The notes below the pieces were generated by a model, which was not told where the DNA came from, did not search any database, and saw only the letters and a list, made by a program, of their open reading frames with translations. Positions 3,625 to 5,392 of a stretch of 34,584 nt of DNA are shown piece after piece. The number at the start of each line of letters is the position of its first letter. Positions within the stretch are counted from its first letter, which is position 1. Position numbers and translations under genes: made by a program. Source of the stretch: a virus. Where the stretch lies: positions 1 through 34,584 of IMG/VR virus record IMGVR_UViG_3300032309_000728; one strand, written 5' to 3'.

Positions 3625-3650
3625 AGTAAAGACCGCTTACAATCAGGGGA
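3625..3650 (+). promoter_or_regulatory. Operator copy 5 and cro-like promoter; possible leaderless start
   Basis: AGTAAAGACCGCTTACA (3625-3641) is a fifth, slightly weaker operator copy. It overlaps a -10, TACAAT, at 3638-3643, followed by exactly six bases and the ATG of the cro-like gene, so transcription would begin at or next to the start codon and the mRNA would be leaderless. No good -35 is seen; the base positions 17 bases upstream read ATCGGT. A weak promoter helped by a bound activator at 3588-3604 is a possible reading. Confidence 0.5.
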
Positions 3651-3811
3651 TGGACACGACAAGGGCTATTAAACTCGCAGGAACGGCTATGGCCTTGGCC
3701 AAGCTGCTGGGCATTACCCGCCAGGCGATTTCGCAGTGGGGTGACCAGGTGCCCCAGGCCCGTGTGTGGCAGTTGAGGGCGCTAAGGCCGGAGTGGTTCA
3801 AGAACAGTTGA
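3650..3811 (+). CDS. Cro-like helix-turn-helix regulator (53 aa)
   Basis: This 53-residue protein starts MDTTRAIKLAGTAMALAKLL. It carries a helix-turn-helix at about residues 15-37, AKLLGITRQAISQWGDQVP, followed by the third-helix pattern VWQLRALRPEWF typical of Cro/YdaS-type phage regulators. Length fits Cro-like proteins. It stands divergent from the leftward arm with three operator palindromes between, so it probably represses the leftward promoters and controls itself. Only a poor AGGGG touches the ATG, which agrees with a leaderless message. No CI-type partner with a protease-like domain is present, so either this is a lytic phage with a single timing switch or the partner is unrecognised. 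Confidence 0.82.
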   Translation: MDTTRAIKLAGTAMALAKLLGITRQAISQWGDQVPQARVWQLRALRPEWFKNS

Positions 3812-3881: not shown

Positions 3882-4001
3882 CCCCTCAGTTCGCTGTGGT
3901 GGGTCTTGACAAGCATCAAGCGAGGCTTTTGCCGATTTCAATCGCCTTGTTGCTGCTCACGCCAAGAGCCAAGATCCACCAGAACGAATTGAGGGGTTTT
4001 T
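3882..4001 (+). terminator. Long two-tier hairpin followed by U-tract
   Basis: CCCCTCAGTTCG (3882-3893) pairs with CGAATTGAGGGG (3985-3996), and inside it TGGTGGGTCTTG (3897-3908) pairs with CAAGATCCACCA (3970-3981). That is 24 pairs, each tier with one G-U, separated by a 3x3 internal loop. TTTTT follows at once (3997-4001), then GCTTTT. An inner arm can form from AAGCGAGGC and GCCTTGTT. It has the form of a very strong intrinsic terminator or of a stable structured small RNA of about 155 bases starting near 3844. If it terminates, the rightward genes need antitermination or another promoter. Confidence 0.6.
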
Positions 4002-4308
4002 GCTTTTGCAGACCGTACTCCGCACGAAGTAGGGGCCGCAAGTGGGGCTGCTCGGAAGGAAACCGCGACACGGTATGCCGTAAGGCTAGGGGGCAGTTCC
4101 CGAACAATCCGTGCGGCTGGTCGAATCATCAAGCCGAGGGGCGTACGGTGAGAATCCGTAGCATGATGATCCCGCAAGGGGGTGGAACCTGTTCCTTCTT
4201 ACTTCACTGGTGTGGGGTAGGGGGGTCTTTGGGTGGAATTTATTGAATTTGATTTTTGAGACACGGCTAGGTCTGAATTGATCCCCAGACCGAAAAGCGA
4301 ACCTCCCG

Positions 4309-4345: not shown

Positions 4346-4702
4346 ATGTTTGAAAGCGGATTTGACCAGTTTTGGGCAGCATGGCCCAAAAGTCCAAGGA
4401 AGGGCGCTAAGGCAGCGTGTTTGGCCAAGTGGGAAAAGGGTCTGTACGAACACTGTGCTGACCAAATTCTCAAGCACGTTGAGTGGCAAAAGACGACCGA
4501 TCAATGGCTAAAAGACGGCGGCGCGTTCGTGCCAGCACCACTTGTATATCTTAACCAGCAGCGGTGGGATGGGGCCGAGATTCCAGAGCCTAAGCGCCAA
4601 GTCTCTATTGCCCAGCAGTTTGAGGAGCGCAACCGTAACGCGGTTCCCATGCCTGACTACATCCGTGAGCGCCTAGCGAAAATAAGGAAGGGGCAAACAT
4701 GA
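4346..4702 (+). CDS. Phage replication-associated domain protein
   Basis: This 118-residue protein starts MFESGFDQFWAAWPKSPRKG and has KAACLAKWEKG, WQKTTDQWLKDGGAFVPAPL and YLNQQRWDGAE. The F-x2-FW-x2-WP...GGAFxPxPxxxLNxxRW pattern is the C-terminal module seen in many phage replication initiators and helicase-recruiting proteins (lambda O/DnaD-like context). Here it stands alone, without an N-terminal DNA-binding winged helix. The C-terminal tail (QFEERNRNAVPMPDYIRERL) is basic and helical. As no polymerase or helicase is encoded, it may recruit the host replisome. The start at 4346 follows CAGGAG; it ends in ATGA overlap with the next gene. Confidence 0.7.
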   Translation: MFESGFDQFWAAWPKSPRKGAKAACLAKWEKGLYEHCADQILKHVEWQKTTDQWLKDGGAFVPAPLVYLNQQRWDGAEIPEPKRQVSIAQQFEERNRNAVPMPDYIRERLAKIRKGQT

Positions 4703-4827
4703 TAGAGATCATCATCACCGTCGGCGTTTTTGCTGGCGCGATCTGGTGGGCCTGCACTGCAAACTTTGACATCTGCGATAACTGCAATCACGACTGCGAT
4801 CAGGGCAGAAAGTGCCCACACAAATGA
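4699..4827 (+). CDS. Small membrane-anchored cysteine-rich protein (42 aa)
   Basis: A 42-residue protein: one hydrophobic N-terminal segment (MIEIIITVGVFAGAIWWACTA) followed by a short tail with four cysteines in 14 residues (CDNCNHDCDQGRKC), enough for one metal site or two disulfides. Both ends overlap their neighbours as ATGA. It could be a signal-anchored periplasmic protein. No function recognised. Confidence 0.65.
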   Translation: MIEIIITVGVFAGAIWWACTANFDICDNCNHDCDQGRKCPHK

Positions 4828-5102
4828 CACCCAACCAACTTTTAGACGCAGCGCGAGAAGGGCAGAACTACTCCTATGAGCAAATCACAGCAGCCCTTAT
4901 CGCAACCGGCGACCTGGACGGAGGAATGGCGCAGGGAATGCGAAGCAAGGGAATGGATGAGCCGCTGGAAAGACCAACAGAGCGCCAAAGGAACGCAGTG
5001 GGCGAATCTTTGGTGGTCAAGGGTGATCTTAAAGATCAGCGAGATTCGCGGCCCTGGTGCAGCGCATACCTTGCGTCAAGACATGAAACGACTAGCCTAT
5101 GA
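4824..5102 (+). CDS. Unknown protein; frame 1 of an overprinted pair (92 aa)
   Basis: Starts MTPNQLLDAAREGQNYSYEQ and continues ITAALIATGDLDGG, an amphipathic helical start; the rest is polar and less structured. Both its start and its stop overlap their neighbours as ATGA (with the 42-residue gene and with the VRR-NUC-like gene), which is the coupling used throughout this region and is the main support for it. A second open frame, 4876-5121, covers most of the same bases. The N-terminal 31 residues look most protein-like; the C-terminal part may be a by-product of the overlapping gene. Function unknown. Confidence 0.6.
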   Translation: MTPNQLLDAAREGQNYSYEQITAALIATGDLDGGMAQGMRSKGMDEPLERPTERQRNAVGESLVVKGDLKDQRDSRPWCSAYLASRHETTSL

Positions 5103-5121
5103 GACGAGCCGCCAAGATTGA
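4876..5121 (+). CDS. Unknown Trp-rich protein; frame 2 of an overprinted pair (81 aa)
   Basis: Starts MSKSQQPLSQPATWTEEWRR and contains EEWRRECEAREWM, then IRGPGAAHTLRQDMKRL. This arrangement, WRR-x-CEAR near the start and RG-x4-LR-x-DM near the end, resembles a family of short phage proteins of unknown function (DUF7696 type, named from memory and not checked). It overlaps the 4824-5102 gene for 227 bases in another frame and the next gene by 23 bases. Its ribosome site is weak. Either frame could be the only real one; both look expressed to me. Confidence 0.55.
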   Translation: MSKSQQPLSQPATWTEEWRRECEAREWMSRWKDQQSAKGTQWANLWWSRVILKISEIRGPGAAHTLRQDMKRLAYETSRQD

Positions 5122-5392
5122 CGCCAATCAACAGCAAGTTGTTACGGCGCTACGAGCCGCTGGCGCTACGGTGCAGTCTCTGGCGGCAGTTGGCAAGGGC
5201 GTACCTGACCTGCTGGTGGGATTCCAAGGCAAGACACTTCTCATGGAAGTGAAGGATGGCAATAAACCGCCTTCTGCAAGGGAGTTGACTGAAGATCAAC
5301 TTACCTGGCATGGGGCATGGCGTGGTGGGCCGCTGTCTGTAGTTGATGGGCCAGAAGCAGCACTAAGAGCATTGGGGGTATTGCGTGATTGA
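5099..5392 (+). CDS. VRR-NUC-like PD-(D/E)XK nuclease
   Basis: This 97-residue protein carries the compact VRR-NUC nuclease pattern: N-terminal helix DANQQQVVTALRAAGATVQS, then VGKGVPDLLVGFQGK with D37, and LLMEVKDG with E50 and K52, followed by LTEDQLTWHGAWRGG. Members cut structured or branched DNA. A stand-alone domain of about 100 residues is typical for phages, where it is proposed to act as a resolvase during replication or packaging. The start overlaps the previous stop as ATGA. It complements the leftward ERF/exonuclease recombination set. Substrate not determinable from sequence. Confidence 0.85.
   Translation: MRRAAKIDANQQQVVTALRAAGATVQSLAAVGKGVPDLLVGFQGKTLLMEVKDGNKPPSARELTEDQLTWHGAWRGGPLSVVDGPEAALRALGVLRD

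Follow-up and report, generated by a model that had tools for sequence, protein, structure and literature searches.

Overlapping phage genes have long been known, but gene callers usually discard long overlaps between genes on one strand of a tailed phage. Few of them have comparative evidence for both frames. Same-strand overlaps of phase 1 are described as arising by loss of a stop or by a shift of a start codon (PMC2542354, PMC2268670). A phage example is provided by Fc02, in which two ORFs that overlap ahead of the repressor gene are reported to function in superinfection exclusion (PMC9936078). Here we describe a pair of overlapping frames, genes A and B, in a virus record of 34,584 bases, the whole of which is referred to as the window. 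Literature searches on overlaps recovered no paper on the A/B pair, and a full-text search returned none on DUF7696, the family of B, hence no overlapping partner of this family was found described.

Both frames are located where a preliminary description of the window had placed them and share the stretch given in Table 1. B contains the W-R-R-E-C-E-A-R start noted in that description, whereas its end motif is RG-x6-LR-x-DM (RGPGAAHTLRQDM) and not RG-x4 as had been reported; the core pattern of the family is WRRECEARxW...RG...L..DM. The suspicion that B belongs to a known phage family proved correct, as the protein matches DUF7696 (PF24751) over residues 13–75 with 42.6 bits (cut-off 27; E 6.3e-11) and shares its core motif. 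The AlphaFold model of B has a pLDDT of about 90 in the core, while the N-terminal extension of the protein is not conserved and its start codon is weak in many relatives. A fold search of the PDB with B gave no solved relative at E≤0.001, and the best viral match of the predicted structure was an uncharacterised phage protein (42% identity). No matches were obtained by tblastn with A and B against named phages, with A against plasmids or with B of one distant relative, nor by a nucleotide search with the region.

Table 1. Coordinates of the genes and constrained regions at the A/B locus (positions in the window).
Feature	Position	Strand	Description
Upstream 42-aa ORF	4699..4827	+	coupled to A by ATGA
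Gene A	4824..5102	+	92 aa; ATG overlaps upstream stop (ATGA)
Conserved N-terminal domain of A	4824..4922	+	~33 residues, two predicted helices, includes ITAALIATGDL
Gene B	4876..5121	+	81 aa; DUF7696 (PF24751); three predicted helices
A/B same-strand overlap	4876..5102	+	227 bases; B reads at A+1
First region of reduced B-synonymous change	4933..4962	+	opposite GMRSxG[LM] of A; weaker, partly forced by B
Second, strong region of frozen B-synonymous sites	5035..5073	+	RGPGAAHTL in B, PWCSAYLA in A
Gene C	5099..5392	+	97-aa VRR-NUC/endonuclease-like; phrog_93 match

The ATG of gene C overlaps the TGA stop of A, so bases 5099–5102 are read in three frames (A, B and C) at once, and B and C overlap by 23 bases. 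The ATGA couplings reported for the two ends of A are thus both present, but the one at the 3' end lends A no support. The next gene has its start at about +148 to +160 counted from the CEAR codon of B, with the phase unchanged, in loci without the A domain (L116, L120, L125, L099, L113 and L108) and also where A stops earlier (L089, L093 and L095). The 3' coupling is therefore imposed by the overlap between B and the next gene, and the two lines of evidence that had been presented as independent are not fully so. Among 20,000 synonymous recodings that kept the B protein and followed the codon usage of the phage, 6.5% left frame A free of stops throughout the overlap. This figure alone is weak evidence; it is the relatives that make the case strong.

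The family of the upstream 42-aa ORF was not found in searches of the family libraries. Further upstream, the window contains a small P22 Cro/YdaS-like repressor (3650–3811, + strand; PF14549, E 9.8e-13) and an int-alpA RNA (RF02996; 4260–4332, + strand), the only Rfam match in the window at the gathering threshold (36.6 bits; gathering score 35.8). Between the two, a G+C-rich stretch without a convincing gene (3990–4215) resembles a structured RNA to the eye; it has no Rfam match, and positions 4000–4215 fold no better than shuffled sequences (z 0.25).

Gene A was searched against Pfam, PHROGs and NCBIfam and matched no family above chance. A match to phrog_5314, reaching 0.0096 in the best of 4 of 13 A members, was not adopted; a profile search of the PDB returned a 'Matrix Protein' at E 0.0055. 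In the AlphaFold model the N-terminal domain has a pLDDT of 82–85, and the remainder, mostly coil, falls below 60. Relatives of A were identified at 15 loci with the single protein and at 45 with an alignment. As one of the two peptide patterns used in the 45-locus search contained the tail motif of A, the loci for the selection tests were taken from scans with B instead. One of these scans found 237 relatives, of which 80 were listed; after removal of sequence duplicates, 72 distinct B loci were kept among the matches listed (in one set, 13 of 68 loci were left out, as they did not match the core pattern).

All three frames upstream of B were searched for the motif [IVLA]..[AC][LI]..[TS]GD[ILVR], which was present at 55 of the 72 distinct loci among the matches listed; one locus, L006, ends inside B and cannot show A. 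At all 55 loci the motif lies in the A frame relative to B (six distances, all equal modulo 3) and B has an in-frame ATG, GTG or TTG start codon; A starts with ATGA or GTGA at 47 of them. The domain also exists on its own. In MW202710.1 it forms a complete 35-aa gene, UOF80824.1 (MSWTEAMRILDRLKDGWSYPAKIVDEALRLTGDLD; hhalign 98.1%), a homologue of the N-terminal domain of A that, unlike A, stands alone without a tail. It is followed by a gene weakly matching B (hhalign 32%) that does not overlap it, a small gene and a C-like gene. The label of UOF80824.1, 'ubiquitin-like protein mdY2 helical', is unsupported (MDY2_C, E 0.076, below the cut-off). In Limnohabitans phage DC33 (PQ492659.1) the order is swapped relative to the window, the DUF7696 gene (E 2.1e-14) preceding an A homologue with a 4-base overlap. 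The DC33 genome is recorded as Inoviridae, a label that is probably wrong, as its size of 39 kb does not fit that family. The tail of A is not universal, since among distant relatives that carry A it comes to an early end at scattered points inside B. At one further locus (L087, 2937–3533) the stop of frame A is lost and A reads into gene C, potentially yielding a 199-residue A–C fusion.

Wherever a third codon position of B precedes AA, AG or GA, a T at that position produces a stop in frame A, and such positions are termed risk sites. Loci were grouped by the RG motif of B; the group of the window, RGPG, comprises 30 loci, and counts of 26, 27, 29 or 30 apply to different analyses, some loci being without a readable gene C and some having been added later. 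Across the RGPG loci T was found at 0 of 332 risk sites and at 180 of 758 other sites. Counted by column, T occurred in 0/19 risk and 16/32 other columns (p=0.0001, 30 loci; Fisher tests here and below take columns as independent, and the sequences within a column are related). The RGES group behaved alike (0/19 against 13/31 columns, p=0.0006; T at 0/154 risk sites), as did RGQAG (0/14 against 11/25, p=0.003) in the 6 of 11 loci used, B being shorter in the other five. No avoidance was seen in RGQKAV (5/14 risk against 9/24 other columns), and a control in gene C gave 12/21 risk against 48/63 safe columns with T. A distant A-bearing group displayed partial avoidance (8/26 against 24/37 columns, p=0.008), the pattern predicted for an A that extends over part of B. 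Frame A is open beyond what B leads one to expect, which is one mark of a functional overlap.

Since third codon positions of B are first positions of A, a change silent in B almost always alters A. Measured against gene C from the same RGPG loci, B-silent change is normal midway along B and reduced in two regions (Table 1). The lowest 9-codon window of B has 6 third-position changes, whereas windows of gene C have at least 19 (mean 37). Opposite PWCSAY.A of A, the codons CCT (29/29 Pro), GGT, GCA, GCG and TTG are invariant in the 30 RGPG loci. Relative to expectations obtained by resampling gene C columns of equal degeneracy, the frozen zone, which was chosen after viewing RGPG, contains 4 changes against 26.1 expected in that group (P=0.00011, 27 loci). 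RGQAG, tested on the identical columns, has 1 against 12.2 (P=0.00001, 10 loci); its A reads P-G-W-S-R-Y-L-D across the zone. By comparison, the linker of A (B columns 13–36) is as variable as gene C. Columns of the frozen zone in which a change silent in both frames is possible tend to vary more than the others (3/4 against 5/24), a suggestive result (p=0.058).

The ratio dNN/dNS was calculated with our own script after the OLGenie scheme (PMC7531306). For frame A over the core of B in RGPG it was 0.66 (0.43–1.00), as opposed to 1.67 (1.18–2.67) in gene C under an identical shift and 1.16 for the other shift in B; by itself the RGPG value does not exclude 1, and the intervals for RGES and RGQAG include 1. 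Purifying selection acts on frame A inside the overlap in patches. Over A as a whole, the N-terminal domain and the C-terminal motif are constrained, and the linker between them is nearly free.

Codon identity at conserved residues was also compared between positions RG+4 to RG+8 and the middle of B. It was 0.93 against 0.63 in RGPG, 1.00 against 0.59 in RGQAG and 1.00 against 0.68 in the eight RGES loci, which are without the A domain; in all three groups frame A is open in the zone. The values for the five RGQKAV loci, where frame A is not maintained and stops at +11 (2/5 loci) or at +137 to +140 (3/5), were 0.47 against 0.70. Similarly, seven A-bearing loci with A ending at or before RG+1 gave 0.38 against 0.64. 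Wider early-ending sets, in which some A frames reach the zone, gave 0.35 against 0.55 (11 loci) and 0.32 against 0.47 (13 loci, in six of which A ends inside the zone or at its end). The L117-type set, with three distinct sequences only, was left out of the group tests. The freeze is missing from groups with an earlier end of A or an unmaintained frame, which, given the small size of these groups, is support and not proof.

These observations bear on several alternative readings. A might be real only as its N-terminal domain of ~35 residues, the tail being functionless read-through to the next stop. The stand-alone 35-aa A, the scattered stops inside B in distant relatives, the unconstrained linker and the low-confidence, mostly coiled prediction of the tail would all suit this reading; it is nevertheless unlikely in view of the stop avoidance and frozen sites in RGPG and RGQAG and their absence where A is shorter or unmaintained. 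It is less probable still that the freeze is due to a DNA or RNA element (an operator, a structure or a signal for translation of gene C) and not to coding in frame A. The frozen stretch does lie 25–65 bases ahead of the C start codon, and it is frozen in loci without the A domain too, but its bases are wholly different among RGPG, RGQAG and RGES, which argues against a shared element. Moreover, RGQKAV is free of the freeze although its gene C is of the same kind and phase, no evident hairpin is common to the minimum-energy folds computed for six examples, and the avoidance of stops all along B is left unexplained. An antisense gene behind the frozen stretch is likewise unlikely: antisense frames are open over its 39 bases, but over 255 bases the best of them is open in at most 6/30 RGPG, 7/11 RGQAG and 2/8 RGES loci.

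Programmed frameshifting, from A to B or from B to A, could join the two frames in place of separate starts, and the relative frame fixed at 55/55 loci and the weak start codons of B in many relatives are compatible with it. We regard it as very improbable. None of 30 RGPG loci has a −1 heptamer in the phase of B, a shift from A to B would need to be +1, an in-frame start codon of B is available at every A-bearing locus, selection on A continues past any shift point and, where A is missing, B starts right before its core. Hardly credible is the reading in which B is the only gene and frame A is open by chance through the composition of B. The share of recodings that remain open and the origin of the 3' ATGA as a by-product of gene C are in its favour, but it is contradicted by the conservation of the A domain upstream of B and its stand-alone occurrence in another phage, and stop avoidance in three groups speaks against it as well.

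The reading that we prefer, and consider very probable, is that A and B are both real genes with predicted translation of each, so that the stretch shared by them would be dual coding. In the lineage of the window the tail of A is protected from stops, and PWCSAYLA is under purifying selection on top of that acting on B. The overprint that the preliminary description held to be plausible is thereby upheld. The homology search proposed there found homologues of both products, and the proposed substitution analysis identified B as a conserved DUF7696 protein and recovered the N-terminal domain, stop avoidance and frozen C-terminal motif of A; purifying selection is detectable in both frames, and not in one alone, the finding that had been named as contrary to the overprint.

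With regard to origin, we infer that an ancestral A was a short gene ending after ...TGDLD beside B. Loss of its stop, an upstream extension of the start of B, or both, would have fused the two reading spaces in the fixed A+1 phase, and the new tail of A may later have gained a role. A single early polycistronic mRNA would carry A, B and C. From the arrangement of starts and stops, A would initiate by coupling to the preceding stop, B at an ATG inside A (TTG or GTG in relatives) and the nuclease-like gene C within the overlap, so that three proteins would be made together.

In the RGES loci the A frame has an ATG that overlaps or adjoins the preceding stop, 4–22 bases before the ATG of B. Their signals reflect either a different head on the same kind of overprinted tail or, in part, another cause. 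Eight DUF7696-type loci without the A domain (L099, L101, L113, L116, L118, L120, L122 and L125) have an open −1 frame, avoided stops and a coupled ATG just before that of B, and may represent a second, unannotated family of overlapping genes. Tentatively, and with doubt slightly prevailing, the −1 frame of the DUF7696 cistron might be established as a coding frame alongside that of B in three or more phage groups, with different N-terminal heads. RGPG and RGQAG would then carry the AL..TGD domain as their head, and RGES an unrelated coupled one. If true, the overprinted tail would be a functional unit re-used with exchangeable heads.

Some indication of function is given by the neighbouring genes. 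Gene C matches the phrog_93 endonuclease (E 6e-11), on which basis it is named VRR-NUC/endonuclease-like only; in the window it has no Pfam VRR_NUC match at E≤1, and in a relative (L108) the VRR_NUC score of 16.7 bits is under the cut-off of 23.8. The next genes in the inspected loci encode VRR-NUC-like, RusA, RuvC-like or PAPS-reductase-domain proteins (8 proteins scanned). NinB follows in one checked locus, and in MW202710.1 NinB and genes labelled 'recombination enhancement' are listed a short way downstream. Such recombination-type neighbours make an accessory role in recombination or replication of the phage DNA our best guess, A and B most likely belonging to a DNA recombination/replication cassette. 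The two are probably partners, since in most of the phages seen they adjoin or overlap each other, and in DC33 they occur in swapped order. For DUF7696 this provides a likely partner and a genomic neighbourhood of resolvases and recombination genes.

The relatives offer intermediates, namely a stand-alone A, an early-ending A, an A reaching the next gene and an unmaintained frame, which allow one to trace how an overprinted tail emerges and becomes fixed. The overlaps of phiX174 have been proven experimentally. A and B would resemble phiX174-type overlaps, which are among those cited in PMC8227390, in that one phage sequence yields two functional proteins. With the ORFs of Fc02, A and B share a position on the same transcript in alternate frames and an internal AUG shortly downstream of the first; the genes and the genome region are different, and the superinfection exclusion function is that of Fc02 (PMC9936078). 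The phase-1 overlaps (PMC2542354, PMC2268670) are of the same phase class (B at A+1) and plausibly of like origin; what sets A/B apart is a short motif in the captured tail that is itself under selection. The A/B overlap would be a clear new instance of a device already known, and the comparative evidence for it is unusually good.
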